A stretch of 64,000 bases of DNA from Terricaulis silvestris (GTDB taxonomy: Bacteria > Pseudomonadota > Alphaproteobacteria > Caulobacterales > Aquidulcibacteraceae). The stretch is taken from contig NZ_CP047045.1 in NCBI RefSeq assembly GCF_009792355.1, forward strand, positions 3,684,501-3,748,500. The letters are read 5' to 3'. The notes below the pieces were generated by a model. That model had not been told where the DNA came from and did not search any database. It saw only the letters and a list, made by a program, of their open reading frames with translations. Position 1 is the first letter of the stretch. The number at the start of each line of letters is the position of its first letter. The position numbers and the translations under genes are program-made. This document shows, one piece after another, positions 9,348 to 30,238 of this stretch.

Positions 9348-9370
9348 GGCTTGTGTCTAGCGGCTCGCGC

Positions 9371-10405: not shown

Positions 10406-10416
10406 GGAAAACTCCG

Positions 10417-10499
10417 GAACATGAGAACGGGCGCGCGGCTGGCGCGCGGAAGCGGCGTCAGGTCAGGCCCGCCATCGCCAGAGGTGCGTTCTCGTGTTC
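10417..10499 (-). promoter_or_regulatory. Long imperfect stem in the murJ-trpS spacer, next to the trpS RBS
   Basis: The 110-nt spacer holds 13-nt arms at 10417-10429 and 10487-10499 that pair at 12 of 13 positions, enclosing about 57 nt of GC-rich sequence with an inner GCGCGC repeat. In the trpS message the 3' arm ends one or two bases before the GGAG ribosome site. It could be a translation-control, processing or stabilising structure. I see no T-box or trp-leader peptide. No terminator U-run follows. Confidence 0.4.
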
Positions 10500-10515
10500 A
10501 TGGGGCGGGCTTCTA

Positions 10516-12120: not shown

Positions 12121-12153
12121 GTGTGGAAACGACTCAGTGGCGGAGGCATCTGC

Positions 12154-14967
12154 CTAGCGCGCCGTCGATGCCCGCGCCACCGCCAAGGCCTTTTTCGCGG
12201 GATCCGCAGGCGCCGCGGGTTCAGCGGCACGCAAAACGGCCTCAAGTTTGTTACGCAGCGTTGCGATGCGCTGTGGATTGCTCACTTGCCCGCCGCCCTC
12301 TTCCTGCACGTAGAACACGTCAGACGCGCGCTCGCCCAGCGTATCGATGTGCGCGCTGACGATGGAGACTTTGGCTTCTGCAAACACGTGCGCGAGCTCC
12401 GCCAGCAGGCCAACGCGGTCGCGGCCGGAGGCTTCAAGCACCGTCGAGCACGGCGTCAGCTCGTTATCGAGACGCACCCATGGTTCGATCGAGAACGCGG
12501 CGAAGCGGCGCGGGGCGGGTTTGGCGTCTGGCAGCGGGTGATCGCTGAGCGCTGCGCGATGGAGTCTTTCGGTCAACGACACCAGCAAAGCCGGGTCGCG
12601 CAGGCCGAACGGCTTGTGATCGGTGGTTTGGATCGAAAACACATCGAACGCCGCGCCATCCTTCGTGGTGTGAACGCGTGCGTCCGCGATATCGGCGCCG
12701 CTGGCGGAGACGGCCGCGCTCAGGCTGGCGAACAGACCGGGGCGATCGGCAGCGTAGACAAGAACCTCCGTGACGCCCTGCGTCTCGCGGAACCGTGTCG
12801 CAACGTGGGGAATGGCTTTGGCGTTGCGCGCGGCCAGCACTTCGCACGTGTGCCAGACGCGCGCTTCAGCGTCGTGATTGATCCAATAGCCGTCTTCGAG
12901 CGCGCCGAGCCAGGGCGCTAGCACGCTTTCATCCTCGCCGATGTCGCCGAGCAATTGCTCTTTCGCGTTGCCGGCAATTTCAGCGAGGTGCGCGCGTACG
13001 CCTTCTTCGTCAGAGCGCCCCCCGTGCAGCGCCGCTTCAGTGAGGCGGTAGAGATCGCGCAGCAGCTGGCCCTTCCAGTCGTTCCAGATCGTCGGGCCGA
13101 CAGCGCGGATGTCGGAAACGGTGAGGACAAGCAAGAGACGCAGTCTCTCGACTGTCCCGACCGTCTCAGCGAATGTCGCGATTGTCCGAGGATCTGAAAT
13201 ATCGCGTTTCTGCGCGACATCGCTCATCACCAAATGGTTGCCGACGAGCCAGGCGACAAGCTCGACTTCTTCCTTCGGCAGACCAAGGCGCGTGCACGCG
13301 GCGCGCGCGGATTTGGCGCCTTCGATCTGCTGATCGCCGTCGCCCTTGCCGGTGTCGTGCAGTAGCATGGCGAGGTAGAGCGCGCGGCGGTTGATGATCT
13401 TGGAGAAGATCTCCGTTGCGAGCGGGTGCTGATCCTTGTGCCGGCCGTGCTCGATCTCCGACATCGCGTCGATGGCTTGCAGCGTGTGCTCGTCCACGGT
13501 GTAGTGGTGATACATGTTGAACTGCATCTGCGCGACGATGCGGCCGAACTCCGGCACGAATTTCCCGAGCACGCCCGCTTCGTTCATGAGCCGCAGCGCT
13601 GCGCCTGGATGACGCTCTGATGTCGCGACCTTCAGGAACGACGCGCGCGCGCCTTCGTCCTTGCGCCATTGCGGCGTCATGCGGCGCGTCCGGCGCGCAG
13701 CTTCACCGAGGGCGTTGGGATGCACGTCGAGATCGCGGCGTTCTGCGATTTCGAACAAGCGAACAACATTGCTCGGCGTGTCGAGCACCTTCGCTGACTC
13801 GATATTGAGACGTCCGCCTTCGATGACAAAGCCGGGCGTATCGGGTCCGACTTGCTTGCGGCTTGGCGGCAAAAACCGTTGCAAACCGCGTGGCGCGTTC
13901 TTGGCGTGATCGGCTTCGAGTCGCGCGCAGAGCACGCGCGTCAGCATGCCGACTTCCTTCGCAACCAAGAAATAGCGCTTCATGAAGCGCTCAACGTCGG
14001 TCTGGTTGGCGCGGCTGTGGTAGCCCATGCGCTTGGCCATTTCTGGCTGCACGTCAAAGGTCAGCCGCTCTTCGCCGCGCGCGGTGAGGAAATGGAGGTG
14101 GCAACGCGCGGTCCACAGGAAGCGCAGCGCGCGGCGGAAAATGAAGCGCTCTTCTTCCGTGAACACGCCGTTCGTGACGTAGTCTTCGGGCTTTTCGAAG
14201 CCGTAGCGGTGCCGCGCCATCCAGAACAGTGTGTGTAGATCGCGCAGGCCACCCTTCCCTTCTTTGATGTTGGGTTCGACCATGTAGCGCGACGCGCCAA
14301 CGCGCTGGTGGCGCTCGTCGCGCTCCTTCAGCTTGGCGGCAATGAAGCCGGCGTGATCCTTCTGCGCGACTTCCTTGCGGAAGCGCACCAGCAACTCTTC
14401 AGCGAGCGATTGATCGCCCGCGATGCGCCGCGCTTCGAGAAGCGCCGTCTGAATGGTGTGATCTTCGCGCGCGAGCTTCAGACTCTCATCGACATTGCGC
14501 GACGCGTGGCCGACCTTCAGCCCCATGTCCCAGAGCATGTAGAGCATGTACTCGGTCACACTCTCGCTGAAGGCGGTGGGCTTGTAGGCGCGGAGGAACA
14601 GCAGATCGAGATCGGAAGATGGCGCGAGTTCGCCGCGGCCATAGCCGCCGACGGCCATTACGGTGAAGCGCTCGCCCTCGGTCGGGTTGCGGGCGCGAAA
14701 GAGGTGGACGGTGGTGTAATCGTAGAGTGCGCTGACGACTTCATCGGCCACTTGCGCCAGGAGCCGCGCTACCGCGAGCCCGTCCTCTCCGGCCTCGAGC
14801 CGTTCCTTGGCGATCATGCGCCCCCGAAAGAGCGCGTGGTGGAGCAGGTTCTTGACCGACGCCCGCGCGTTCTCGCCCTCGCTCAAGGCGACTGCGCTCA
14901 GTTGAGCACGCAGCCTGTGGCCATCGACCACATGCTCGATCCGAGCGGGTTTGAAGCGGGGGATCAT
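12154..14967 (-). CDS. glnD: Bifunctional PII uridylyltransferase / uridylyl-removing enzyme
   Basis: Nitrogen sensor that uridylylates PII when glutamine is low and removes UMP when it is high. 937 aa. Domain order: nucleotidyltransferase (GGYGRGELAPSSDLDLLFL at 107-125, with D119 and D121 as metal ligands), a linker, an HD hydrolase domain (LLHDTGKGDGD), and two C-terminal ACT domains that bind glutamine (about 735-800 and 845-915). Nothing is truncated. The substrate glnB/glnK is not in this window. Confidence 0.97.
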   Translation of the reverse strand: MIPRFKPARIEHVVDGHRLRAQLSAVALSEGENARASVKNLLHHALFRGRMIAKERLEAGEDGLAVARLLAQVADEVVSALYDYTTVHLFRARNPTEGERFTVMAVGGYGRGELAPSSDLDLLFLRAYKPTAFSESVTEYMLYMLWDMGLKVGHASRNVDESLKLAREDHTIQTALLEARRIAGDQSLAEELLVRFRKEVAQKDHAGFIAAKLKERDERHQRVGASRYMVEPNIKEGKGGLRDLHTLFWMARHRYGFEKPEDYVTNGVFTEEERFIFRRALRFLWTARCHLHFLTARGEERLTFDVQPEMAKRMGYHSRANQTDVERFMKRYFLVAKEVGMLTRVLCARLEADHAKNAPRGLQRFLPPSRKQVGPDTPGFVIEGGRLNIESAKVLDTPSNVVRLFEIAERRDLDVHPNALGEAARRTRRMTPQWRKDEGARASFLKVATSERHPGAALRLMNEAGVLGKFVPEFGRIVAQMQFNMYHHYTVDEHTLQAIDAMSEIEHGRHKDQHPLATEIFSKIINRRALYLAMLLHDTGKGDGDQQIEGAKSARAACTRLGLPKEEVELVAWLVGNHLVMSDVAQKRDISDPRTIATFAETVGTVERLRLLLVLTVSDIRAVGPTIWNDWKGQLLRDLYRLTEAALHGGRSDEEGVRAHLAEIAGNAKEQLLGDIGEDESVLAPWLGALEDGYWINHDAEARVWHTCEVLAARNAKAIPHVATRFRETQGVTEVLVYAADRPGLFASLSAAVSASGADIADARVHTTKDGAAFDVFSIQTTDHKPFGLRDPALLVSLTERLHRAALSDHPLPDAKPAPRRFAAFSIEPWVRLDNELTPCSTVLEASGRDRVGLLAELAHVFAEAKVSIVSAHIDTLGERASDVFYVQEEGGGQVSNPQRIATLRNKLEAVLRAAEPAAPADPAKKALAVARASTAR

Positions 14968-15116
14968 CTGGCTGTTATTTCACCGCTTTGGTGCATTGGC
15001 GCCACCCTTCCGACTGTAAGGCATGACTTCTTGGTAAATCTTCGCACCCAAACTTGCCTCATTTCCCGGTCACAGCCACAAAGGAACAACGGGCGACCGC
15101 CCTGGGAGAGCTATCG

Positions 15117-15464
15117 ATGCGCAGCAAGGGCGGCCGGACCATCAAACTGAACCCGGTCGATGACGACCATCAGATCCACGATCACCCAGCCCGCGCGGGC
15201 ATGGAAGCGATCATGGATCAGAAGTTGTTCCATCAGCGCATCAAGAGCGAGCGCTCATCCGCCTATTGGTTCGCCGCCTCGCTCTGGGGCGTGACCGGCC
15301 TGATCCTGGGCGTCATCCTCGGCGTCTACATGACCATGGTGGTTCAGACTGGCTCGGCCGACATCTGGCGCAACAACTTCATTGCCGGCGCCGCCTCAGA
15401 CGCCGCGCGTGAATCGGTCGACAGCCGCGAACCGCTGCTGCCATCAGACCCGGCCCAGCCGTAA
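15117..15464 (+). CDS. Small single-span membrane protein, unknown function
   Basis: 115 aa. One strong hydrophobic segment at about residues 51-77 (from WFAASLWGVTGLILGVILGV onward) lies between a charged, histidine/aspartate-rich N-terminus and an acidic, proline-ending tail. I do not recognise the family. The frame is open from 15054, but ATG at 15117 has GGGAG about 7 nt upstream and is the likely start. It is transcribed divergently from glnD; its stop codon directly abuts the mutS stop, with no spacer. Confidence 0.7.
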   Translation: MRSKGGRTIKLNPVDDDHQIHDHPARAGMEAIMDQKLFHQRIKSERSSAYWFAASLWGVTGLILGVILGVYMTMVVQTGSADIWRNNFIAGAASDAARESVDSREPLLPSDPAQP

Positions 15465-18131
15465 TCAGTTTTCGTCTTTAAGTGACTTCAGCTTGTAGAG
15501 CGCATCGAGCGCCTGCTTGGGGCTAAGTGCATCCGGATTGATGGCGTCGAGCGCGGCTTCAAGCGGCGACGTTTTGTTCTCTTCCATCACTTGCGCGAAC
15601 AGCGGCAGCTCGTCGGCGATATCAACGCGCGTCGCGCCGCCATTGGCTTCGAGCCGCTGCAACACCGCACGGGCGCGTTCAACGGCGCTCTTTGGGACGC
15701 CGGCGAGCTTGGCGACTTGGATACCATAGGAGCGATCGGCGGCGCCGGGCGCGACTTCATGCAGGAAGACGAGATCGCCTTTCCATTCCTTGGCGCGGAG
15801 GTGCGCGTTGGCGCCGGCTTCGAGCTTGTCGGCGAGGCGCGTCAACTCGTGGTAGTGCGTGGCGAAGACAGCGCGGCACTTGTTGGCTTCGTGCAAATGC
15901 TCGGCGACGGCCCAGGCGATGGCGAGGCCGTCGAACGTCGCGGTGCCACGGCCGATTTCATCGAGCACGACAAGCGCGCGCGGACCGGCCTGGTGCAGGA
16001 TCGCGGCGGTTTCGACCATCTCAGTCATAAACGTAGAGCGGCCGCGCGCGAGATCGTCTGAAGCGCCAACGCGGGCGAAGACGCGATCGACGATGCCGAG
16101 ACGCAGTTTCTTCGCCGGGACGTATGAGCCAGCTTGCGCCAGCACGGCGAGCAGCGCGATCTGGCGCAGATACGTGCTCTTGCCCGCCATGTTCGGGCCA
16201 GTGACGACCATCAGGCGCGGCCCGGATTTACCCTCGGCGTCGAGCCGCGCGTCGTTCGGCGTGAAGCCCTGACCGTCGCGGCGGACGCCTTCCTCCGCCA
16301 CGGGATGGCGCGCAGCTTCGGCGAGCAGCGCGGTGGTGTCATCGATCTCCGGGCGCGTGGCTTGCGCTTCTTCGGCCCACACCGCGAGGCCGGCGGCAAC
16401 ATCGAGCGACGCGAGTGCTTCGGCGGCGGCGCGGATGTCCTTTTCCTGCGCGGCGGCGCGGGCGGCGAAGTCCTTGAACAACGCCAGCTCGCGCGAGAGA
16501 GACGCTTCACCGGCGCGGGAAATCTTGGCGTCGAGTTCGGCCAACTCCGTTGTGGTGAAGCGGATCGAGCCGGCGTTGGTTTGTCGATGGATGAAACGCG
16601 CGTTCAGCGGCGGCGCCATCAACGCTTCGGCCTGCTTGGTGGTGGCGTCGATGTGATAGCCGAGGACGCCGTTGTGCTTCAGTTTCAGCCCAGCGATGCC
16701 GGTTTCCTCGGCGTAGCTGGCTTGCAGCGCCGCGATGACTTTGCGGCTGTCGTCGCGGAGCGCGCGGGATTCGTCGAGCACTGCGTCGTAGCCCGGCGCG
16801 ATAAAACCGCCGTCTCGCGTTAGCAGGGGCAATTCCGGCGCGAGCGCGCGGGCCAAAGTTTGCGCGAGGCTAGCGCAGTCGGGATGTGCCGCGACCGAAA
16901 GCGCTTCGCAGGCGCGCGCGATTTCGCCGGGCGTATCGCCGTTAGTTCCCGCGCAGCGCGCAGCAGCGCGATCGCCAGCACTCAAACCATCGCGCACTTG
17001 CGCCAAATCGCGTGGACCGCCGCGGCCGAGCGCAAGCCGCGTCACCGCGCGGGCAAGATCGCCGGCAACACGCAACTCTTCGCGGACACCTTCGCGTTTG
17101 CCGCGCTCGTCGAGGAAGAACTGCACCGCATCGAGACGCGCAGTGATGGCCGTGCGATCGGTCAGCGGCCGGCCGATGCGTTCGGCCAGCATGCGCCCGC
17201 CTGCTGACGTCACAGTGCGGTCGATGCAGGCGAGCAGCGAGCCCTCTCGCGCGCCGCGCGTGGAGCGCTCGATTTCCAAACCTGCCCGCGTGGCGGCGTC
17301 GATGGCCATGAAGGCGCGCTCGGCGTTGCGGCGCGGCGGCATCAGACGCGGCGCGGCGCCGGCTTGGGTGAGTTCGATATAGTCCAGCAGCAGGCCCATG
17401 GCCGACAGCTCGGCGTCACTGAATTCGCCGAAAGCATCGAGCGCGGCGACTTCAAACGCGCTCTTGATCCGGCGCGCTGCTGCCTTGGCGTCGGCCTTCA
17501 CGGCGGGCCGTTGCGTGACCACGGCACCCGAAATACGCGCAGCTTCGTTGACACGTGGCGTATCAGCCTCAACGACAAGCAGCTCCGCAGGCGACAGCGC
17601 GGCTAGCTCTTCCTCCACATCGCGCGCCGCGATCGCCCGCGTCTCGAACGCGCCGGTTGAAACATCCGCCCACGCAATTGCTGCGCTCTCACCATCAAAT
17701 GCACACGCCGCAAGACGATTGGCGCTGCGCGCATCGAGCAACCCCTCCTCCGTCAGCGTTCCGGGCGTGACGACGCGGACGACGCCGCGATTGACGATGG
17801 ATTTCGCGCCCCGCTTCTTCGCTTCGGCCGGATCTTCAAGCTGTTCGCAAACTGCAACCTTGAAGCCAGCGCGGATCAGTTTGGAGAGATAGTTCTCGGC
17901 CTGGTGCCACGGTACGCCAGCCATCGGGATCGGCTCGCCGCCGTGTTGGCCGCGCTTGGTGAGCGTGATGCCGATGGCGGCGGACGCCTTCACCGCATCG
18001 TCGAAGAATATCTCGTAGAAATCGCCCATGCGGAAGAACACGAGTGAATCCGGATGTTCCGCCTTGGCGGCGAGATACTGCGCCATGAAGGGCGACGCCT
18101 TCGGCGGCGGTACGTGCGAGGAATCGGCCAC
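15465..18131 (-). CDS. mutS: DNA mismatch repair protein MutS
   Basis: Recognises base mismatches and starts mismatch repair. 888 aa. The mismatch-reading Phe-x-Glu is F38-Y-E40 in GDFYEIF. The ATPase domain has Walker A TGPNMAGKST and Walker B VVLDEIGRGT, followed by the signature histidine region FATHYHELT. All MutS core domains appear intact, with a C-terminal dimerisation tail. It is divergent from maeB and convergent with the small membrane protein gene, with adjacent stop codons. Confidence 0.98.
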   Translation of the reverse strand: MADSSHVPPPKASPFMAQYLAAKAEHPDSLVFFRMGDFYEIFFDDAVKASAAIGITLTKRGQHGGEPIPMAGVPWHQAENYLSKLIRAGFKVAVCEQLEDPAEAKKRGAKSIVNRGVVRVVTPGTLTEEGLLDARSANRLAACAFDGESAAIAWADVSTGAFETRAIAARDVEEELAALSPAELLVVEADTPRVNEAARISGAVVTQRPAVKADAKAAARRIKSAFEVAALDAFGEFSDAELSAMGLLLDYIELTQAGAAPRLMPPRRNAERAFMAIDAATRAGLEIERSTRGAREGSLLACIDRTVTSAGGRMLAERIGRPLTDRTAITARLDAVQFFLDERGKREGVREELRVAGDLARAVTRLALGRGGPRDLAQVRDGLSAGDRAAARCAGTNGDTPGEIARACEALSVAAHPDCASLAQTLARALAPELPLLTRDGGFIAPGYDAVLDESRALRDDSRKVIAALQASYAEETGIAGLKLKHNGVLGYHIDATTKQAEALMAPPLNARFIHRQTNAGSIRFTTTELAELDAKISRAGEASLSRELALFKDFAARAAAQEKDIRAAAEALASLDVAAGLAVWAEEAQATRPEIDDTTALLAEAARHPVAEEGVRRDGQGFTPNDARLDAEGKSGPRLMVVTGPNMAGKSTYLRQIALLAVLAQAGSYVPAKKLRLGIVDRVFARVGASDDLARGRSTFMTEMVETAAILHQAGPRALVVLDEIGRGTATFDGLAIAWAVAEHLHEANKCRAVFATHYHELTRLADKLEAGANAHLRAKEWKGDLVFLHEVAPGAADRSYGIQVAKLAGVPKSAVERARAVLQRLEANGGATRVDIADELPLFAQVMEENKTSPLEAALDAINPDALSPKQALDALYKLKSLKDEN

Positions 18132-18224
18132 CGGCCAGCTTTAGCGTCTCGCGCGCCGGACTTCCATTGACCAGGGAAGTCGCACCGTTAGGGTGCGCCC
18201 AAACTACCAACGAGCTCCCAATAC

Positions 18225-20510
18225 ATGCCCGATTCCAGGAAGACGTTCACCGACGCTGAGGCGCTGGACTTTCACCGCCTGCCTACGCCGGGCAAGATTT
18301 CCATTCTCCCCACCAAACCGATGGCGACGCAGCGCGATTTGTCGCTGGCGTATTCGCCAGGCGTCGCCGTGCCGGTGAAGGCGATCGCCGAGAACCCGGA
18401 CCTCGCCTACGACTATACATCCAAGGGCAATTTGGTGGCTGTGATCTCGAACGGCACCGCGATCCTGGGGCTCGGCAATCTCGGCGCGATGGCGTCGAAG
18501 CCGGTGATGGAAGGCAAGAGCGTCCTCTTCAAACGCTTCGCCGACGTGGACTCGATCGACATCGAAGTGACGACGCAAGATGTCGAAGAGTTCATCACCA
18601 CGGTGCGCAACATCGGGCCGACGTTCGGCGGCATCAATCTGGAGGATATCAAGAGCCCGGAGTGCTTCATCATCGAGAGCCGGCTGCGCGATGAGTTGGA
18701 CATCCCGGTTTTCCACGATGACCAGCACGGCACGGCGATCATCGCGGCGGCTGGCTTGCTCAATGCGTGCGAACTGACGGGCCGTCGGCTCTCGGACATC
18801 AAGGTTGTCGTCAACGGCGCCGGCGCCGCCGGGCTTTCGTGCATTGCTCTGATCAAGCAGCTCGGCGTACCGCATGAGAATGTCATCGCGTTGGACCGCG
18901 AAGGCGTGATCTATCGTGGCCGCGAAAAAGGCATGGACCAATTCAAATCCGTGCACGCGATCGACACCAAGGCGCGCACGCTCGACGACGCGATCAAGGG
19001 CGCCGACGTGTTCATGGGCTTATCGGTCGCCGGCGCGATGACGCAGGACATGGTCCGGGCGATGGCGAAAAAGCCGATCATCTTCGCCATGGCCAATCCC
19101 GATCCGGAGATCACGCCAGAGGAAGTCCACGCCGCGCGCAAGGATGCGATCGTGGCGACGGGCCGGTCGGACTATCCGAACCAGGTCAACAACGTACTGG
19201 GCTTTCCCTACATCTTCCGCGGCGCGCTCGACGTGCGCGCGCGGACGATCAACGAAGAGATGAAAGTCGCCGCAGCGCGTGCATTGGCGGAGCTGGCGAA
19301 GCAAGACGTGCCGGATGAAGTCGCCGCGGCGTATCACGGCAAGCGGCTGAAGTTCGGGCCGGATTATATCATCCCCTCTCCGTTTGATCCGCGCTTGATC
19401 TCGGAGATTCCGCCCTATGTGGCGCAGGCCGCGATGGATTCCGGCGTCGCACGCAAGCCCATCGCCGACATACAGGCTTACAAGCACAGCCTGGCGCAAC
19501 GGCTCGATCCGACCGCGGCGATGATCCAGCGCGTGCAAACCGTAGTGCGCCGTACGCCGCGCTGCATCGTGTTCGCCGAAGGCGAAGAGCCGGCGGTGAT
19601 CCGCGCGGCCTTCGCGTTTCAGGAGCTGGGCCTTGGGCGCTCCGTCCTCGTCGGCCGCGAGGACACCGTGCGCGATAACATGGCGCAAGTCGGCGTGCCG
19701 GAGAGTGCGAACCTCAACATCGTCAACGCGCGGCTCTCGCACAACAACGAGATCTACGCCGACCACCTCTACAAGCGGCTGCAGCGCTTCGGCTTCCTGC
19801 AGCGCGACGTGCAGCGGCTGGTCAACCAGGATCGCAACGTCTTTGGCGCGTGCATGGTCGCGGCTGGCCACGCCGACGGCATGGTGACCGGCGTGACGCG
19901 CAACTACGCCACCGTACTCGACGACGTGCTGAAGGTGATCGATCCCGCGCGCGGCGAGCGCGTGATGGGCATGTCGATCGTCCTGATGAAAGGCCGCACG
20001 CTCTTTATCAGCGACACGGCCGTCGCCGAGTTTCCCGAACCGCAGGAGCTAGCGCAGATCGTGCTCCAATCCGCGGCGATGGCGCGCCAGTTCGGCGCGA
20101 TCCCGCGCGTGGCGCTGCTCTCGCACTCCACGTTCGGCAATCCGAAGATGGAACGTTCGGAGAAAATTCGCGACGCGGTATCGATCCTGGATCGCCGCGA
20201 GGACATCGATTTCGAGTACGAAGGCGAGATGAACGTCGATGTGGCGCTCAACGCTAACATCAAGGACCTTTACCCGTTCTCGCGCCTGAGCGAGGCGGCC
20301 AACGTGCTGGTGATGCCGGCGCTGCACTCGTCCTCGATCGCTACCAGCCTGCTCGCCACCGCTGGCGGCGCGACGGTGATCGGCCCGGTGCTGACTGGGC
20401 TAGCTAAGCCAATTCAGATCGCGCCGCTCGGCGGCACGGTGTCGGACATCGTGACGTACGCAACCGTCGCCGCGTTCCAGGCTGCGGAGGCCGTGGAAGC
20501 GAAGGCCTAG
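18225..20510 (+). CDS. maeB: NADP-dependent malic enzyme with phosphotransacetylase-like domain
   Basis: Oxidatively decarboxylates malate to pyruvate, producing NADPH. 761 aa, the standard MaeB fusion. The N-terminal malic domain (about 20-155, SLAYSPGVAVP) and NAD(P)-binding domain (about 165-400, VVVNGAGAAGLSC) are followed by a phosphotransacetylase-like domain (about 430-755) that in this family is regulatory and binds acetyl-CoA. A small hairpin with 6-bp arms (CGCACC/GGTGCG) lies at 18181-18197 in the leader. Its stop shares the bases CTAG with the convergent ampG stop. Confidence 0.95.
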   Translation: MPDSRKTFTDAEALDFHRLPTPGKISILPTKPMATQRDLSLAYSPGVAVPVKAIAENPDLAYDYTSKGNLVAVISNGTAILGLGNLGAMASKPVMEGKSVLFKRFADVDSIDIEVTTQDVEEFITTVRNIGPTFGGINLEDIKSPECFIIESRLRDELDIPVFHDDQHGTAIIAAAGLLNACELTGRRLSDIKVVVNGAGAAGLSCIALIKQLGVPHENVIALDREGVIYRGREKGMDQFKSVHAIDTKARTLDDAIKGADVFMGLSVAGAMTQDMVRAMAKKPIIFAMANPDPEITPEEVHAARKDAIVATGRSDYPNQVNNVLGFPYIFRGALDVRARTINEEMKVAAARALAELAKQDVPDEVAAAYHGKRLKFGPDYIIPSPFDPRLISEIPPYVAQAAMDSGVARKPIADIQAYKHSLAQRLDPTAAMIQRVQTVVRRTPRCIVFAEGEEPAVIRAAFAFQELGLGRSVLVGREDTVRDNMAQVGVPESANLNIVNARLSHNNEIYADHLYKRLQRFGFLQRDVQRLVNQDRNVFGACMVAAGHADGMVTGVTRNYATVLDDVLKVIDPARGERVMGMSIVLMKGRTLFISDTAVAEFPEPQELAQIVLQSAAMARQFGAIPRVALLSHSTFGNPKMERSEKIRDAVSILDRREDIDFEYEGEMNVDVALNANIKDLYPFSRLSEAANVLVMPALHSSSIATSLLATAGGATVIGPVLTGLAKPIQIAPLGGTVSDIVTYATVAAFQAAEAVEAKA

Positions 20511-24130: not shown

Positions 24131-25654
24131 TTACGAGGCGCGGACCATGCCGCCCTGATCGGCCCCGGCCCATTGGCGTTTCAGGCTCAAGGCTTCCGCG
24201 ACATGAATGCGACGGACGGCCTCTGAGCCGTCGAGATCGGCGATGGTGCGCGCGACTTTGAGGGTGCGGTGATACGCGCGGGCCGACAGCGAAAGCGTCT
24301 CCGCCGCCTTCGCCAGCAGCGCGGCGCCGGGTCCATCGGGTGCGGCGAAGCGTTCGAGTGAATCGAGATCGAGCACCGCGTTGAGACCGCCGCCGCGTTC
24401 GGCTTGCGCGCCGCGCGCGTGCAGCACGCGGTTGGCCGCTTCGGCGGTGCCTTCGATCGGCGGCGGCAGAGCGAGATCGGCGGCTGTGACGGCTGGGATG
24501 TCGAGCTGAATGTCGATGCGATCGAGCAAAGGCCCCGAGAGACGCGCTTGGTAGTCGATCGCGCAGCGCGGCCCACGCCGGCATTGGCCCGCGCCTGGGC
24601 CACCACCGCAGCGGCACGGGTTCATCGCGGCGGCCAATAGAATGCGTGCGGGATATGTGACGTGATGATTCGCGCGCGCGATCAGCACTTGGCCGGACTC
24701 GAGTGGCTGGCGCAGCGCATCCAGTGCTTGCTGTGAGAACTCGGGCAATTCATCGAGGAAGAGCACGCCTTGGTGCGCCAAGCTGATTTCGCCCGGCTTC
24801 GCGCGCAAACCACCACCAACAAGCGCCGCCATCGATGCGGAATGGTGCGGCGCGCGGAAGGGGCGCGTGCGTGTCAAACGTCCGCGTTCCAGCAAACCCG
24901 CAACAGAATGCAGCATCGATACTTCAAGCAATTCTTCGCTGGAAAGCGCCGGCATTAGGCCCGGCAGCCGTTGCGCCAGCATGGATTTCCCTGCGCCGGG
25001 CGGGCCGACGAAGAGAATGTTGTGCGCGCCGGCAGCGGCGATTTCGAGCGCGCGCTTGCCTTGCTCCTGGCCGCGCACGTCGCGCAAATCGGGGACGGCA
25101 GCTCCAGAGATCAGATCGCCACGCTCAGGCGGCTTGATCGCAGCGCCGCCGCGGAAATGATTGACCAGTGAGAGCAATGACGGCGCAGCGATCACTTCGC
25201 CGCCGGCCCACGCCGCCTCCGAGCCGCACGCTTCGGGACAAATGAACGCCGCGCCCATGCCGTGCGCGGCCATCGCCGCCGGCAGCGCACCCGGCGCGGG
25301 CGCCAACGCGCCGTCCAATCCGACTTCGCCGAAGCAGACGACATTGTCGAGCGCGTCGTGCGGCAGTGCGCCGATCGCGGCCATCATGGCGAGCGCGATC
25401 GGCAAATCGTAGTGCGTCCCCTCTTTCGGGAGATCCGCAGGCGCGAGGTTGACCACCAAGCGGCCTGCTGGAATTGCAAGTCCGATAGACGCAAACGCAG
25501 CCCGCACGCGCTCCCGGCTTTCGGAAACGGCCTTGTCGCCGAGCCCAACAATGACGATGCCGTGCGTGCCGCCGGCCAGTTGTGCTTGAACTTCGACGCG
25601 GCGCGTTTCGAGACCCGCGAAAGCCACCGTCACCGCATTGGCGCACGTCTGCAT
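24131..25654 (-). CDS. comM: YifB/ComM family Mg-chelatase-like AAA+ ATPase
   Basis: 507 aa. ComM is a hexameric helicase that promotes branch migration in natural transformation. An N-terminal ChlI-like Lon-type domain (IVGLGDKAVSESRERVRAA) precedes the AAA+ domain with Walker A GPPGAGKS at 217-224, then a cysteine-rich MNPCRCGG...CRRGPRC zinc-like motif and a C-terminal lid domain. The ATG at 25654 gives the usual family start and length; another start lies 21 nt upstream. A transposon begins 33 nt before the start codon, so the native promoter may be displaced. Confidence 0.93.
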   Translation of the reverse strand: MQTCANAVTVAFAGLETRRVEVQAQLAGGTHGIVIVGLGDKAVSESRERVRAAFASIGLAIPAGRLVVNLAPADLPKEGTHYDLPIALAMMAAIGALPHDALDNVVCFGEVGLDGALAPAPGALPAAMAAHGMGAAFICPEACGSEAAWAGGEVIAAPSLLSLVNHFRGGAAIKPPERGDLISGAAVPDLRDVRGQEQGKRALEIAAAGAHNILFVGPPGAGKSMLAQRLPGLMPALSSEELLEVSMLHSVAGLLERGRLTRTRPFRAPHHSASMAALVGGGLRAKPGEISLAHQGVLFLDELPEFSQQALDALRQPLESGQVLIARANHHVTYPARILLAAAMNPCRCGGGPGAGQCRRGPRCAIDYQARLSGPLLDRIDIQLDIPAVTAADLALPPPIEGTAEAANRVLHARGAQAERGGGLNAVLDLDSLERFAAPDGPGAALLAKAAETLSLSARAYHRTLKVARTIADLDGSEAVRRIHVAEALSLKRQWAGADQGGMVRAS

Positions 25655-25667
25655 GAGAGCCCCGCCT

Positions 25668-25676
25668 TTATCCACA
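25668..25676 (+). promoter_or_regulatory. Perfect DnaA box
   Basis: TTATCCACA, an exact match to the DnaA-box consensus, lies in the native DNA between the comM start and the transposon. It is 3 nt from the target duplication. A single box is weak evidence for function. Confidence 0.4.
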
Positions 25677-25687
25677 GACCGGGTCTC

Positions 25688-25706
25688 GGTACTGTCTCAG
25701 TTTGAA
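25688..25706 (+). repeat. Left terminal inverted repeat of the transposon
   Basis: GGTACTGTCTCAGTTTGAA, identical over 19 bp to the complement of 30137-30155. The similarity weakens just inside (matches at inner positions 22 and 24-26). Confidence 0.95.
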
Positions 25707-25782
25707 ATCGGAACAAGCTTGACCGGGCGTTGAAAAATAGGCCGGAGCGGGCCATGCTTAGCGGCAGGCATGGGAGGCTCGC

Positions 25783-26076
25783 ATGAGCAATATCGATGCG
25801 ATTGAGACCTACATCGAGCGGATGAAAGAAGCCGCAGACAAGAACATTCCGATTTCGGTGGCGTTCTATGGACACCAAGCAAACGTCGTCGCCACTATGG
25901 CCGTCCACCACGAACTTTGGCTGCTGGTCGAAGAAATAAGGGCGCTCCGTTCTGAGTTGGCGCTGGCGCGCAATCCGACATCAACCGCACCGCCGCCACC
26001 GCCAGTTCCGCCCCCACGTCCGGCGCCACAGGCAGACCTGAACTATCGCGGCCCATCTCCATTCAAGCGGTTTTGA
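25783..26076 (+). CDS. Transposon cargo: small protein with proline-rich tail
   Basis: 97 aa, family not recognised. The first 60 residues look helical and amphipathic (DAIETYIERMKEAADKN ... VEEIRALRSELALAR), possibly a coiled coil. They are followed by a proline-rich stretch (about 67-82) and a short basic-aromatic end (SPFKRF). The ATG is preceded by a strong GGGAGG site at 5-6 nt. It lies 3 nt before the next gene, so the two form an operon reading into the element. An AGCTTGACC sequence at 25717-25725, also found before the gene at 26384, could be a shared -35 region. Confidence 0.7.
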   Translation: MSNIDAIETYIERMKEAADKNIPISVAFYGHQANVVATMAVHHELWLLVEEIRALRSELALARNPTSTAPPPPPVPPPRPAPQADLNYRGPSPFKRF

Positions 26077-26079
26077 TCC

Positions 26080-26325
26080 ATGCCTAAAGGCCCACGCGGC
26101 GAACGCCGCCCCACAGACGTTATAGGCGCCGCCATAAAGGTTGGTCGCCTTGCTGTAGGCGATGACACCGAAGACCTGAAAGACGATGGGAAAGACCCAG
26201 CCGCTAAAGCGCTAGGGGCTAAGGGCGGCGCTGCGCGGGCTAAGAGTCTAAGCGCCTCAAAACGCTCGGAAATCGCCAAGAAGGCGGCGGCGAAGCGTTG
26301 GGGCTCCCCGAAAAAGCGAAAGTAG
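26080..26325 (+). CDS. Transposon cargo: small basic protein with AAAKRW motif
   Basis: 81 aa, strongly basic toward the C-terminus. It starts MPKGPRGERRPTDVIGAAIKVGRLA and contains ALGAKGGAARAKSL followed by EIAKKAAAKRW. Small proteins with this architecture are widespread in alphaproteobacteria, often as orphans and usually labelled hypothetical or RNA-binding; I cannot assign a function. The lysine/alanine repeats suggest nucleic-acid contact, which is inference. It is 3 nt downstream of the proline-rich protein gene. Confidence 0.72.
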   Translation: MPKGPRGERRPTDVIGAAIKVGRLAVGDDTEDLKDDGKDPAAKALGAKGGAARAKSLSASKRSEIAKKAAAKRWGSPKKRK

Positions 26326-26336
26326 AGCTTGACCAT

Positions 26337-26378
26337 TGTCCCAAATTCCTGCATCAAATGATGCAGAGTTTTGGGACA
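26337..26378. promoter_or_regulatory. 42-bp two-tier palindrome, candidate operator
   Basis: Outer arms TGTCCCAAA/TTTGGGACA (9 bp) and inner arms CTGCATCA/TGATGCAG (8 bp) are arranged symmetrically around AA, with 3-nt mismatched spacers. The palindrome ends 5 nt before the ATG at 26384. A TTGACC that could be a -35 element lies just before it (26329-26334), so a bound protein would block the promoter. The XRE protein encoded two genes on is the natural candidate repressor. Equally, it could form an RNA hairpin at the start codon. Confidence 0.6.
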
Positions 26379-26383
26379 TCAAT

Positions 26384-27019
26384 ATGACCGACACCGTTCT
26401 CCGGGAATCCCACGAAGTCGTTCCCTTCCTGACGACGCTCAGCTTGGACGTGGAAGGGTTGGTCGAGGCGGTGAGGTACGCTGAGAGCCAGCGCGCACTC
26501 TGCACCAGCAATGACGTCCACGGCTTCTCTCAGATGACGGTCTACGACAAAGCCGCGCGCGGCTTGCGCGAGGTCTATTGCGGTAGAGACGGCTGGGAAA
26601 AGGACGAGACGAACAATCAAGCGGGCATCTGCAATCCCGCTCTGAAAATTCGCGTAGTCCCCTGCAACTTTACGATTGAATGCGGAACGTCGGTTGAGCC
26701 GACGAACCGTTCGCCTAAGGGCGAAGTCAGCAAAGCGAAAGCGCGATGCAATGCGACTGGCTGGCTTCCCGGTTTGCCGGACATCGAAGCGCAAGAAGGT
26801 AGCGAATACAAAACTTGGATACTTGGAATCTACGCGGTCGGCGGTGAACCGTTGAAAGCGGAGCTTTCTTTCCCGGTCGCCTTCGACGGAAAGTATTTCA
26901 CGCGGTTTGAGACGCGCGTCATCCTTCTGCGTGGCAGCGAAGACGACGACACGCCAACCGGTCGCCGTGACGCGCCGGAGCCAACGGAAGTGGTAGACAT
27001 TCCAATCGCACGGCGCTGA
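26384..27019 (+). CDS. Transposon cargo: unknown protein paired with XRE-ImmA protease
   Basis: 211 aa, no recognisable family. Predicted largely beta-rich, with several cysteines in the first half (CTSNDVHG, REVYCGRDGW, GICNPALKIRVVPC, FTIECG), no signal peptide and an acidic-rich C-terminus. The frame extends to 26336, but ATG at 26384 lies just after the palindrome and avoids coding through it. No Shine-Dalgarno is visible in front, so it may be leaderless or start at the upstream TTG. Its stop is 3 nt before the XRE-ImmA gene. In ImmA/IrrE systems the neighbour is often the regulated target or partner, so this may be a substrate, effector or antitoxin. Confidence 0.72.
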   Translation: MTDTVLRESHEVVPFLTTLSLDVEGLVEAVRYAESQRALCTSNDVHGFSQMTVYDKAARGLREVYCGRDGWEKDETNNQAGICNPALKIRVVPCNFTIECGTSVEPTNRSPKGEVSKAKARCNATGWLPGLPDIEAQEGSEYKTWILGIYAVGGEPLKAELSFPVAFDGKYFTRFETRVILLRGSEDDDTPTGRRDAPEPTEVVDIPIARR

Positions 27020-27022
27020 GCC

Positions 27023-28093
27023 ATGCCAAATCCTGATCGAATTGAGTTGGTCCGGCGGCGGCTTGGACTGACTAAGAGCGGACTCGCTGATCGGCTAAAG
27101 ATCGATCGCAAAGTTCTGCAACGTTTCGAAAGTGGCGAGTTCGGATTTCCTGATCCGAGCCTAGATGCGCTGTGTCGAGAAACCGGGTACCCGCGCGCCT
27201 TCTTTGAAAAAGGCACGTTCGAATTTCCTAGCGCACACGGCGTGAGCTTCCGTTCGCTACGCTCTTTGACTGCGGGCACCCGCGACGCTGCATTGGCAGC
27301 GGGAGCGCTGGCGTTTGAGTTCGATGACTGGATTGCAGCGCGCTACGCATTGCCAGCGCATCAAATCCCCCAGATCGAACAACAGTCACCCGAGCAAGCG
27401 GCGGCGTTTGTCCGCGCCAAGTGGGGCATAGGCGAGCGCCCCATCGGCAACATGCTGAACCTTTTGGAGTCTAAAGGCGTTCGCGTGTTCTCTCTCGCGG
27501 AGGAGACGCGCCATTTGGATGCGTACTCATTCTGGCGCGATGACAAACAGCCTTATGTGTTTCTCAACACCCTAAAGACGGCTGAGCGCACTCGCTTTGA
27601 TGCCGCGCATGAGCTTGGGCATTTGGTGATGCACCGGCATTCGGGCTCGACGAATCCTAGCGCTGAGAATGAGGCCAATGCGTTCGCATCGGCGTTTCTA
27701 ATGCCGCCAGCCGATCTGCTCGCTGAGATTCCTCGTGTTCGTTCGCTAGAACAAATCATCGAGAAGAAAACTCGCTGGGGCGTGTCTGCTTCTGCGCTCT
27801 GCTACGCGCTGAACAAGCATGAGCGAATGACCGAATGGAATTACCGAGGCTACAATGTCTCGCTCGCGCAAATGAAGAGCGAGCCGAATGCGTTGCCGCG
27901 CGAGACCTCACAAATTTGGACGAAAATTCTTACTGACCTTTGGCGGCAAGGCATCCCGCTGTCGCGCGTATCTGACGAGCTTTTGATTCCTGAGTGGGAA
28001 TTGAACGCGCTCCTCTTCGGTATCGCCTCCACGCAGGCCCCCGGCGCACCGCCGCCTGCCGCCGCGCCACTCCGATTGGTCGGAGATGCTTGA
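27023..28093 (+). CDS. XRE regulator fused to ImmA/IrrE zinc metallopeptidase
   Basis: 356 aa. An N-terminal HTH_XRE domain (about 5-60) is followed by a linker and an ImmA/IrrE (peptidase_M78) domain. The zinc site is intact: HELGH at 196-200 and a downstream glutamate (E217) in ENEANAFASAFLMP. Relatives act as proteolytic switches: ImmA cleaves the repressor of ICEBs1 and IrrE cleaves DdrO; fused forms can also be toxin-antitoxin partners. Here it could control the element's own genes through the palindrome at 26337-26378. A proline/alanine-rich tail ends the protein. The stop lies just before the transposase gene. Confidence 0.9.
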   Translation: MPNPDRIELVRRRLGLTKSGLADRLKIDRKVLQRFESGEFGFPDPSLDALCRETGYPRAFFEKGTFEFPSAHGVSFRSLRSLTAGTRDAALAAGALAFEFDDWIAARYALPAHQIPQIEQQSPEQAAAFVRAKWGIGERPIGNMLNLLESKGVRVFSLAEETRHLDAYSFWRDDKQPYVFLNTLKTAERTRFDAAHELGHLVMHRHSGSTNPSAENEANAFASAFLMPPADLLAEIPRVRSLEQIIEKKTRWGVSASALCYALNKHERMTEWNYRGYNVSLAQMKSEPNALPRETSQIWTKILTDLWRQGIPLSRVSDELLIPEWELNALLFGIASTQAPGAPPPAAAPLRLVGDA

Positions 28094-28096
28094 CGC

Positions 28097-28115
28097 TAAG
28101 CATAAAGTTCAGTAT
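28097..28115 (+). repeat. Internal copy of the right subterminal sequence, before the transposase gene
   Basis: TAAGCATAAAGTTCAGTAT matches 17 of 19 bases, in direct orientation, with 30119-30137 just inside the right end. It sits between the XRE-ImmA stop and the transposase start. It could be a transposase-binding site used for autoregulation, or a relic of an older element end. Confidence 0.55.
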
Positions 28116-28124
28116 AACCGGGGA

Positions 28125-29030
28125 ATGGCAAACGTGCTGCCCCTCGCGAAACGCGTTCAAATCCTGAACCTGCTCAACGAGGGCATGTCGATGCGGGCGA
28201 TCTCCCGCGTCGCTGACGTGAGCATCAACACGGTCTCCAAGCTCTTGGTGGACGCGGGCGAAACCTGCCTCGATCTGCACGACCAGCTCGTCACGCACGT
28301 TCAAGCGAAGAACCTGCAAGCCGACGAGATTTGGTCATTCTGCTACGCCAAGCAAAAGAACGTCCCCGACGCCAAGGCCGCTCCTGAGGGCGCCGGCGAC
28401 GTGTGGACGTGGACTTGCTTGGACAGCGACTCCAAGCTGATCGTCTCCTACCTGGCCTCAGGACGCACGCAGAGCGCCGCCATTCACTTCATGAAGGACG
28501 TGGCGAGCCGCATCACGGGGCGCGTGCAACTCACCACGGACGGCCACAACAGCTACCCTTACGCGGTGCATGTCGCGTTCGGTAAGAACGTGGACTTCGC
28601 TCAGCTTGTGAAAACCTACGGCGCGGAAGGCGGCTCTGGCCCCGAGCGCAAGTACTCTCCCCCGGTTTGCACCGGCGCGCACAAGGTTGTGCGCCAAGGC
28701 AACCCGGATCAATCGAAGATCTCAACGTCGCACGTTGAGCGCGCCAATCTCACCATGCGCATGGGAATGCGCCGCTTTACGCGCCTGACCAACGCGCATT
28801 CCAAGAAGTACGCGAACCACCTCTACGCGCTGGCGCTTTTCTTCATGCACTACAATTTCGTGCGCCAGCACAAGGCGCACAAACTCTCGCCCGCGATGGC
28901 GGCCGGGATTACCGATCGGCTTTGGTCTATGGAAGATATTGCAGAGCGGATTGAAACGCGCGTGAACCAGCCGAAGGCACGCGGCCCCTATAAGGTCCGC
29001 AAGCCCCGTTCCGAGGATGATGCGCGATAA
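28125..29030 (+). CDS. IS1-type DDE transposase
   Basis: 301 aa from ATG 28125; an ATG at 28086 would add 13 residues, but MANVLPLAKRVQIL is the usual family start. An N-terminal HTH (about 10-42, MRAISRVADVSINTVSKLL) is followed by the catalytic domain with D67 in ADEIW, D139 in TTDGH and E205 in HVERAN, a complete DDE triad. The MRRFTRLTNAHSKK and HYNFVRQHK segments match transposases annotated as IS1 family in alphaproteobacteria. No frameshift is needed, unlike classical IS1 InsA-InsB. It presumably acts on the 19-bp ends at 25688 and 30155. Confidence 0.92.
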   Translation: MANVLPLAKRVQILNLLNEGMSMRAISRVADVSINTVSKLLVDAGETCLDLHDQLVTHVQAKNLQADEIWSFCYAKQKNVPDAKAAPEGAGDVWTWTCLDSDSKLIVSYLASGRTQSAAIHFMKDVASRITGRVQLTTDGHNSYPYAVHVAFGKNVDFAQLVKTYGAEGGSGPERKYSPPVCTGAHKVVRQGNPDQSKISTSHVERANLTMRMGMRRFTRLTNAHSKKYANHLYALALFFMHYNFVRQHKAHKLSPAMAAGITDRLWSMEDIAERIETRVNQPKARGPYKVRKPRSEDDAR

Positions 29031-29058
29031 TCGCCTTTTGCATTCTGCGGAGGCGATA

Positions 29059-29238
29059 ATGCGACTAGTGCGACACGGCGACTTCATCGCCGTTGAACCC
29101 GACACCGACAGCGACGCTCGTATTCTAGACGCCGCTATTCTCGGCGGGGCCATTACCCTTCAGCCGGCCCCAGCTTCTCAACTAGCCACTCATTCACCGG
29201 CGGGAAGCCCCAACCACTCATCGGACGCGCAAGCGTAA
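29059..29238 (+). CDS. Transposon cargo: small hypothetical protein
   Basis: 59 aa, MRLVRHGDFIAVEPDTDSDARILD..., family unknown. The main support is a perfect GGAGG ribosome site 5 nt before the ATG. Its last 86 nt overlap, on the opposite strand, the 3' end of the Cas2-like gene, and the C-terminal part (QPAPASQLATHSPAGSPN) has low complexity, so the true gene might be shorter or non-functional. It is 28 nt downstream of the transposase gene. Confidence 0.45.
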   Translation: MRLVRHGDFIAVEPDTDSDARILDAAILGGAITLQPAPASQLATHSPAGSPNHSSDAQA

Positions 29239-29446
29239 TCACGTAGAGCGTGTCGTTGTCGTCGAGATACTGGCGAAGCGCTTGCTTGATGGCGGACGCT
29301 GAACTCTGCGTCTGAATCGCATACGCGGACTCAGAGAGCTTCGCCCATGCCCACGTCTTTTTAATGTGGGCGAGAAGCTTGTTGCGGTCATTCAACCAAC
29401 CGCGACGCTCCTTGTTCATATCGTAGGCAACTAATCGTACTGACAT
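29153..29446 (-). CDS. Transposon cargo: Cas2-like / SinR-family small protein
   Basis: 97 aa from ATG 29446, with GGAG 8 nt upstream. The pattern is a first strand SVRLVAYDMN, a helix with KLLAHIKKTWAWAKLSESAYAIQT, and a later strand DTLYVITLARPMSGWGF. This is the ferredoxin-like layout of Cas2 and VapD relatives annotated as SinR-family protein (not the Bacillus SinR regulator). There is no cas1 or CRISPR array nearby. Related proteins are orphan, and an RNase or nucleic-acid role is only inferred. It is the only gene on the minus strand of the transposon. Confidence 0.7.
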   Translation of the reverse strand: MSVRLVAYDMNKERRGWLNDRNKLLAHIKKTWAWAKLSESAYAIQTQSSASAIKQALRQYLDDNDTLYVITLARPMSGWGFPPVNEWLVEKLGPAEG

Positions 29447-29564
29447 TGTTAGCTCCAATCGGAGCCCACTTGACGGCTTTGCCAAACCCTTTGTTAACTC
29501 TCAGGACATAGCTTCGCCGTGTCTCGCCGTGGGCATTTTGCGCGAGACTGGTTCACTCGATTTG

Positions 29565-29592
29565 CCCTCTGCGAGTTCGCACCTCGCAGGGG
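29565..29592. repeat. Inverted repeat in transposon cargo
   Basis: CTGCGAG and CTCGCAG form 7-bp arms around a 7-nt loop, with CCC/GGG outside one mismatch. It lies in the 255-bp spacer between two divergent cargo genes. It could be an operator or a hairpin; no T-run follows. Confidence 0.35.
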
Positions 29593-29701
29593 GATCGAGC
29601 TTCCCGTCTTCATCATCATGGATGACCGGTTAATCCGGGGTTGAAGCTGTCCCGCTTCGGCACAACTTTCTCCGCGCATGGGGTCGTCTGGGGAGACGAC
29701 C

Positions 29702-29884
29702 ATGGAAGAAGAACCGGAGCAGCCTTCGCTCTTTCCGCCGAACGACCGGTTGAAAGACTTGTTTCAACCGAACCCGCACCCGCCAGGGACAGTGATCAAA
29801 CGCGAGCCGATCAAGAAGCGCCGGCGCCGCAAGGGTCCGCAGAATGACAGCGGCTGGCCGGATGATACAAAGGCCGATGCCTGA
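29702..29884 (+). CDS. Transposon cargo: small charged protein
   Basis: 60 aa, family unknown. An acidic, proline-rich N-terminus (MEEEPEQPSLFPPNDRLKDLF) is followed by a very basic stretch (KREPIKKRRRRKG) and an acidic end. Likely soluble; the basic run could contact nucleic acid. GGGGAG lies 6 nt before the ATG. Its last 8 nt overlap the start of the next small gene. Confidence 0.6.
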   Translation: MEEEPEQPSLFPPNDRLKDLFQPNPHPPGTVIKREPIKKRRRRKGPQNDSGWPDDTKADA

Positions 29885-30017
29885 GTATTGGCCCCCTCCA
29901 GAAGAGCACGAGCGCGAGCGCCGGCGCCTAGATGCGATCCGGCCTTGGCATCAAGCTGTGGCGGCTGGGCTGGCGCTCATGTTGATCGCGGCGGTTGTGA
30001 TCGCAGTTCGGGGATAA
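29877..30017 (+). CDS. Transposon cargo: 46-aa single-span membrane peptide
   Basis: Very small gene starting ATG 29877 inside the end of the preceding gene (8-nt overlap) and ending TAA 30017. The N-terminus is charged and proline-rich (MPEYWPPPEEHERERRRLDA). It is followed by one hydrophobic segment (AVAAGLALMLIAAVVIAV) and a short RG tail, giving a clear N-in/C-out type membrane span. Overlap with a well-placed upstream gene and the clean hydrophobic helix support reality. Small toxins and holin-like peptides look like this, but so do many harmless ones. Confidence 0.5.
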   Translation: MPEYWPPPEEHERERRRLDAIRPWHQAVAAGLALMLIAAVVIAVRG

Positions 30018-30054
30018 CGCGGAACAAAGCGAGCAATATCAACGCACTATAAAC

Positions 30055-30063
30055 TGTGGATAA
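30055..30063 (-). promoter_or_regulatory. Perfect DnaA box inside the transposon right arm
   Basis: TGTGGATAA is the exact complement of the DnaA-box consensus TTATCCACA. It lies 92 nt inside the right end, in the 119-nt noncoding stretch before the terminal repeat. Some transposons carry DnaA boxes near an end (Tn5 outside end), but function here is untested. Confidence 0.4.
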
Positions 30064-30136
30064 CTCTGTGGGCGGCGCAAACGCCGAAAAGCGCTGCAAT
30101 AACAGCGCCGTAAGCCCATAAGCATAAGTTTCAGTA

Positions 30137-30155
30137 TTCAAACTGAGACAGTACC
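30137..30155 (-). repeat. Right terminal inverted repeat of the transposon
   Basis: The complement reads GGTACTGTCTCAGTTTGAA, identical to the left end. It is followed directly by CGGGTCTC, the second copy of the 8-bp target duplication. Confidence 0.95.
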
Positions 30156-30238
30156 CGGGTCTCAGATCGTACACATGAAGAACAAACGCGCAACAAAAAT
30201 CGAACGCTTTGCGCGCGGTCGGTGCGATAGGCGGTGAG

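Follow-up and report, generated by a model that had tools for sequence, protein, structure and literature searches.

The window analyzed here is the whole 64,000-nucleotide stretch of the Terricaulis silvestris genome at positions 3,684,501 to 3,748,500 of contig NZ_CP047045.1, and the subject of this report is a 4,468-bp element that lies in it between comM and a gene resembling, by eye, that of a BON-domain lipoprotein. The element occurs in one copy in its own 3.86-Mb, one-contig genome and is a genuine, complete cargo transposon. Taken as a whole, we are confident in reading it as a complete cargo transposon from an IS1-related family with recurrent target geometries, one that is probably functional judging by its sequence: members of this family have ends, an 8-bp target duplication, and core genes in common, carry variable cargo, and show two recurrent geometries in the DNA just outside their ends. 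The boundaries, core genes, and target of the window element are as follows (window positions; ORF, open reading frame).

24131 to 25675, minus strand: comM, the flanking target gene, intact, with its start about 13 bp left of the element
25680 to 25687: left copy of the target duplication, 8 bp, CGGGTCTC
25688 to 25706, plus strand: left terminal inverted repeat, 19 bp, within a 26-nt arm that runs to 25713 at 88%
26080 to 26325, plus strand: 81-residue core protein (MPKGP..KGG..KKAAxKRW), with homologues in 76 of 78 elements
28125 to 29030, plus strand: IS1-related single-ORF DDE transposase; the ORF opens at 28086 and encodes 314 residues
30137 to 30155, minus strand: right terminal inverted repeat, 19 bp
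30156 to 30163: right copy of the target duplication, 8 bp, CGGGTCTC
30180 to 30194: LexA-like box GAACAAACGCGCAAC upstream of comM, outside the element and 24 bp from its right tip

An earlier note on this DNA had described a complete cargo-bearing DDE transposon with perfect 19-bp inverted repeats and an 8-bp direct repeat directly outside them, and this description is supported, the repeats being exact to the base: the two ends are complementary at 19 of 19 positions, and at 88% when extended to 26 nt. Among 80 loci with end pairs picked on their ends alone, the flanking 8-mers were identical in 72, had one mismatch in 2, and agreed less well in 6 (16 further loci without such an end pair lie outside the 80), while control 8-mers taken 10 to 49 bp further out were identical in 0 of 3,997 comparisons over 100 loci that had been selected for duplications mismatched at no more than one position. 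The earlier note had also proposed looking for an empty site in relatives and for the same ends around different cargo, and both were found. The flanks of the window element, once joined, give a continuous alignment with five loci in congeners (L056, L057, L061, L062, and L063), the site is uninterrupted in 14 congeners, and the closest single-copy counterpart of the duplication is CGGGCCTC in genome G005, with 7 of 8 bases; the end 19-mer (at most two mismatches) is present in 11 of 61 genomes, the element's own included, compared to 0 of 61 for a reversed-pattern control, and the cargo of the relatives differs. Judged from the perfect duplication, a recent insertion is plausible.

When GTDB representatives were scanned with an alignment of nine sequences, at least 570 confirmed relatives were recovered, and the best 80 were used. 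A paired-end scan then covered 97 loci (those 80, 16 regions from relatives, and the window) and yielded 78 distinct elements, window included; the 19 dropped loci had no end pair, weak ends, or no duplication, or, as with L085, duplicated another locus (L019). To be among the 78, a locus had to have a duplication with no more than one mismatch; the figure obtained on ends alone is the 72 of 80 given above. These 78 delimited alphaproteobacterial elements have ends, duplications, and transposase in common, the transposase having served as the search bait, and all except L031 and L126 also encode a protein of about 80 residues homologous to the core protein of the window element (76 of 78). This protein matched no Pfam or NCBIfam family and is predicted to be helical, in a weak structure model (predicted TM-score, pTM, 0.35). 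Element length has a median of 3.2 kb and a range of 1.9 to 9.7 kb. The earlier note had called the presence of cargo unusual, which is not so within the element's own lineage, where 758 to 2,130 bp separate the core gene from the transposase in all 76 elements that have the core gene. Transposase matches at E ≤ 1e-60 occur in 30 of 387 sampled genomes of the Alphaproteobacteria and in 37 of 398 in the order.

The designation "IS1-type" in the earlier note stands insofar as the transposase is IS1-related but fails as an assignment to canonical IS1. The closest curated model is NF033558 (IS1), matched with 63.3 bits (E of 2.9e-17) against a curated NCBIfam equivalog cut-off of 100 bits, and Pfam matches to transposase helix-turn-helix (HTH) and DDE families are below their cut-offs. 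Residues D80, D152, and E218 of the 314-residue ORF are invariant in 9 aligned homologues and would form the catalytic triad, and the predicted structure (predicted local distance difference test, pLDDT, 71) matches those of retroviral integrase, ISCth4, Mu, and TnsB. The 8 aligned relatives likewise have one ORF, with no two-frame arrangement. Plasmid homologues at 57 to 59% identity, which neighbor a RES/Xre pair or an XRE gene, carry the NCBI label "IS1 family transposase," and that name, together with the 8-bp duplications, is what speaks for a canonical IS1 that captured cargo once, as a local oddity. Against this are the single ORF, the score below the NF033558 cut-off, and an organization (ends, gene for the ~80-residue protein, stretch of at least 758 bp, transposase) that recurs in 76 of 78 elements; we consider a canonical IS1 extremely improbable, and we classify the transposase as related to IS1 but outside canonical IS1.

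The first of the two target geometries resembles a −35 promoter element. At 32 of 75 sites, TTGAC (at least four of five bases) begins 15 bp from the tip, separated from the duplication by exactly 7 bp (control, 2.9%), and a perfect TTGAC is found at the same offset at 19 of the 75 (control, 0.2%); this set counts comM once, three of the four comM sites having been left out. The peak was seen again in 5 of 22 new sites (control, 2.7%; retained from 35 loci, of which 5 had already been used, 4 had no end pair, and 4 had no duplication), in 6 of a further 19 (retained from 32 loci, of which 5 had already been used, 5 had no duplication, and 3 had no pair), and in 17 of 49 sites on viral contigs, against a mean of 1.39 elsewhere. 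The viral-contig set, which may share sites with the others, was retained from 80 loci, of which 19 had ends without a duplication, 9 had no end pair, and 3 were duplicates. When the first 75 and the 22 new sites are combined, with two excluded because their flanks were short, TTGAC is at this offset in 36 of 95, compared to a mean of 2.78 and a maximum of 8 at other offsets (p of 2e-30), and an inward-facing TTGAC is found there at none of the 95. Either end can face the half-site (right end 21, left end 16, with one site in both counts), and a −10-like signal scores higher on the half-site side (3.0 versus 1.86; p of 2e-4); sides with a half-site have genes pointing away from them more often than other sides do, albeit weakly (28/38 versus 82/150; p of 0.04). 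A palindromic target was considered and rejected, both half-sites occurring together at one site only (L150), as was tandem insertion at one site: another right end lies beside the element in L114, L115, and L130, with no complete neighbor shown.

Such a distribution could in principle arise with no target recognition at all, if insertion were random and only intergenic, promoter-sparing insertions survived. Selection against gene disruption is to be expected, and 78 of the 97 junctions lie outside called ORFs of at least 100 residues (the scripted gene calls, made from GC-position bias, are rough). Selection on position hardly explains the TTGAC peak, however, because the peak is one base wide and recurrent, appearing in four data sets with an inward-facing control of 0, and the same base at comM has been hit repeatedly; we regard random insertion as very unlikely.

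The second geometry is of the SOS type, with insertions found repeatedly at DNA-repair genes such as recA. Twelve of 119 delimited sites adjoin recA (L023, L025, L130, and L289), dnaE, encoding Pol III alpha (L102, L115, and L143), mmcB (L116), or comM (the window, L019, L020, and L022), with Pfam confirming three recA, three dnaE, and the mmcB; two bare ends add to these, one at recA in G028 and a decayed one at the same comM position in G023. Among the 8 genomes of the window genus with matching ends, five have them at comM, two at recA, and one elsewhere. Of the 14 insertions beside the four genes, bare ends included, 12 have a GAAC-N7-(GAAC/CAAC/GTAC) box that begins 23 to 26 bp from the tip: it is at 24 in all five comM cases, L025, L115 (which has a second box at 50), and L289, at 23 in L023, at 25 in L143 and G028, and at 26 in L116. 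L184, which is not one of these 14, has such a box at 26 as well. Wherever the end is known, the LexA-like boxes are on the right-end side and read outward. Exact GAAC-N7-GAAC boxes within 60 bp occur at 7 of 97 sites, with 0.34 expected from the surrounding DNA, while the comM and recA sites have mostly variant boxes. LexA control of comM and dnaE is presumed from the boxes and from general background. For Caulobacter, GTTCN7GTTC / GAACN7GAAC is listed as the LexA box, and mmcB is called SOS-regulated, in the part of PMC9578287 consulted. We also observed that L035 (G036), a solo end in the window's family, and L086 (9438 to 9577) share a GAAC-rich target locus, with ~78% DNA identity over 98 bp beside the end.

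The comM site provides the clearest view of repeated use. Four species are occupied at the same base, with duplications (CGGGTCTC, AGGGATCC, GATGCGAG, and GATGCGGG) that are perfect (8/8) within each genome and different between genomes, in flanks that are ~75 to 80% identical; 14 of the 30 genus members have an empty site, and 11 gave no site call. A comM tree groups occupied species with empty ones (support of 0.66 for G004/G029, 0.80 for G027/G024, and 0.31 for G011 with G021 and G025). Essentially, the four elements share the end regions, the gene for the 80-residue protein, the transposase, and short blocks, and the remainder differs. These observations might also be explained by one ancestral insertion with later cargo swaps by recombination between the conserved core genes, which would account for four congeners occupied at the same base and for the common parts amid mostly different DNA, and the tree is weak at the relevant nodes (0.31 to 0.80). 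Single descent sits poorly with duplications that match within genomes and not between them, with occupied species interspersed among empty ones, and with the same pattern at recA in L025 and L289, and we judge it unlikely. Separate insertions explain the comM pattern best. Across sites, comM has been used four times, with a fifth, decayed end, recA by four of the 119 plus one solo end, dnaE three times, and mmcB once.

With comM being read leftward, the element probably lies between this gene and its promoter; the window and G004 have an intact comM, and in G011 and G027 it is broken or truncated. The gene itself is split on one contig in G012, G020, G022, G045, and G050, by ~4, 12, 7, 4, and 14 kb, respectively, as if hosting other inserts; comM is a hotspot for islands. 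A DnaA-box-like TTATCCACA occurs twice, at 25668 to 25676, 3 bp to the left of the duplication, and at 30055 to 30063, ~100 bp inside the right end, and ATCCACAG is also close to the insertion sites of L189 and L192. DnaA-box targeting was discarded as a candidate: ATCCACAG lies near 4 of 97 sites (0.37 expected), but its spacing varies between sites.

To account for these geometries, we suggest that the element would transpose by DDE cut or copy and that its transposase, perhaps together with the ~80-residue protein, may capture targets by recognizing promoter or operator sequences or, alternatively, by way of proteins bound there (RNA polymerase or LexA). Insertions would thereby fall mostly between genes at low cost, usually leaving the promoter intact (comM probably being an exception), fresh elements could reuse the same sites, and the toxin-antitoxin and anti-phage cargo would spread by such insertion. 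A strong rival, because the inner TTTGAA at end positions 14 to 19 resembles the TTGAC at target positions 16 to 20 at nearly the same spacing, is that the transposase reads only end-like DNA, that −35 and LexA boxes are merely where such sequence sits between genes, and that RNA polymerase and LexA are uninvolved. Elements beside another element's right end (L114, L115, and L130) fit this idea. The two registers nevertheless differ by ~1 base, the half-site is followed by a −10-like signal and, weakly, by genes reading away, and the LexA-like spacing is seen on the right-end side despite the near identity of the two ends; reading of end-like DNA alone is quite possible, if a little short of probable. 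Returning to capture at promoters and operators, a more specific version is that the SOS box, either by itself or as an operator in complex with LexA, serves as a landing pad, with the transpososome at the right end docking a set distance away from the box. We offer this landing pad tentatively and regard it as rather doubtful. If true, SOS-type promoters (recA, dnaE, comM, and mmcB) would be reusable attachment sites, and the movement of anti-phage cargo would be tied to the host DNA-damage system.

Several observations weigh against a cargo-transposon family with recurrent target geometries. Depending on the data set, 57 to 77% of sites lack a four-of-five TTGAC at the offset, and 19 of 97 sites are inside a called ORF, some of which look like over-extended starts; the comM site fits the LexA-like geometry only, not the TTGAC geometry, and the comM tree is weakly supported. 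The LexA spacing pattern was found after the fact. With the spacing fixed beforehand, 19 further sites contained two LexA-like boxes, of which that of L289 (at recA, in the genus to which L025 also belongs) was where predicted and that of L299 (left end, offset of 45) was not. Two of the insertions at the four genes depart from the spacing: L130, whose boxes are at 14 and 32, and L102, whose exact box is at 49 but which also has GAACAAA at 24. Part of the LexA-box enrichment may only reflect promoters, because the control was the whole flanking, largely coding DNA. Finally, 10 of 78 elements have no called ORF of at least 100 residues besides the core genes, by the rough caller described above.

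The remaining genes and features of the window element, including its cargo, are as follows.

25754 to 25762: ATGCTTAGC motif near the left end, the inverted counterpart of GCTAAGCAT, which lies where the transposase begins
25783 to 26076, plus strand: 97-residue ORF; no family found and no cluster common to other elements
26337 to 26378: inverted repeat with 20-nt arms, 85%, just upstream of rmrT
26384 to 27019, plus strand: RmrT-like toxin; PADLOC RmrT at 2.4e-27, matching from residue 20
27023 to 28093, plus strand: RmrA-like antitoxin with an XRE HTH and an ImmA/IrrE (M78) domain; PADLOC RmrA at 1.8e-125, Pfam M78 at 6.7e-23
29153 to 29446, minus strand: weakly Cas2-like small protein in the second cargo slot; the ORF opens at 29485, and a homologue is present in L025
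29678 to 29884, plus strand: 68-residue ORF, no family
29844 to 30017, plus strand: 57-residue ORF with a homologue in the G011 comM-site element (L019)

The toxin and antitoxin genes are adjacent, toxin first and 3 bp apart; the toxin ORF opens at TTG 26336, with ATG 26384 the likelier start, and the HELGH motif of the antitoxin is intact. We infer that the pair is a RosmerTA toxin-antitoxin system with a predicted anti-phage role, and the dyad at 26337 to 26378 is a candidate autoregulatory operator for it. The Cas2-like protein matches PHROG_1090 (function unknown) at 1.8e-12 and PADLOC Cas2 at 1.9e-4, and its Pfam Cas2 match is below that model's cut-off. Of 77 elements, 47 have the exact 7-mer core of the short motif near the left end and 34 have it where the transposase begins, against an expectation of ~1% per 120 bp, a recurrence that suggests a shared operator. 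A search of Rfam gave one sub-threshold match only. Across the family, 117 of 124 called cargo ORFs were scanned, the 7 ORFs of L031 being excluded. PADLOC matches among these proteins were to single RmrA models (up to 15), RmrT (7), PD-Lambda-2_B (5), HEC-09 (4), PD-T4-5 (3), PtuA (3), and HEC-04 (2), and Pfam matches were to M78 (15), P63C (7), nSTAND1 (4), NYN (4), PemK (2), and, one each, dCTP deaminase and Fic. L031 itself (8910 to 18614) is a distant relative of 9.7 kb with 35% transposase identity, similar ends, and an 8-bp duplication, and its cargo appears by eye to include CzcCBA-type efflux genes. Three nested end copies in G040 (C3:9132-10011; L045, L053, and L054), accompanied by eye by a piece of the ~80-residue gene, resemble decayed elements stacked on one another, and that genome yielded no transposase.

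In this study, we describe a compact and widespread vehicle for exchangeable toxin-antitoxin and anti-phage-like modules, which also represents a second, unrelated transposase lineage found at a fixed distance upstream of promoter sequences and is useful for understanding how transposases find promoters. The link to LexA boxes, if real, would connect the target choice of a transposon with the SOS system, and the uncharacterized ~80-residue core gene is an obvious candidate for an accessory factor. Literature searches at the level of titles and abstract openings found no description of this transposon family.

Classic IS1 has two frames joined by a programmed frameshift, and members of the IS1 family generate 8- to 9-bp target duplications and have ends of ~20 bp that start with GG. 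The present elements resemble that family in DDE transposase homology, ~20-bp ends starting with GG, and 8-bp duplications but differ in their single ORF of ~290 to 314 residues, median length of 3.2 kb, variable cargo, ~80-residue gene in 76 of 78 elements, and promoter- and LexA-linked targeting. The IS1595 family and the transporter insertion sequences (ISs) are similar to the window element as small passenger-gene elements at the border between ISs and transposons, but the IS1595 family is absent from the NCBIfam matches of the transposase, in a library expected to hold an IS1595 model. RosmerTA systems are anti-phage toxin-antitoxin pairs, according to the part of PMC10440598 consulted, and here too both genes match PADLOC models and are adjacent, toxin first; the difference is that they travel on a small transposon that encodes its own transposase, with a function predicted from homology. 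With respect to targeting, TnGBS/ISLre2 (p-MULT 3) and some ISKra4-group (p-MULT 4) elements insert upstream of housekeeping promoters, 15 to 17 bp before the −35 box, and elements with near-perfect repeats have promoters on either side (Guerillot et al. 2014, PMC3942029, in part); in our elements the −35 likewise starts 15 bp from the tip, at either end. The transposases of those elements are Mutator-like, whereas ours is IS1-related, with no Mutator-like family among its Pfam and NCBIfam transposase matches up to an E of 1, in libraries expected to hold such models. LexA-box geometry and defence cargo are not mentioned in the consulted part of PMC3942029. Promoter-upstream targeting is thus already known from TnGBS/ISLre2/ISKra4, with different transposases, and what is new here is the IS1-related lineage, the defence cargo, the ~80-residue gene, and the LexA-box spacing.

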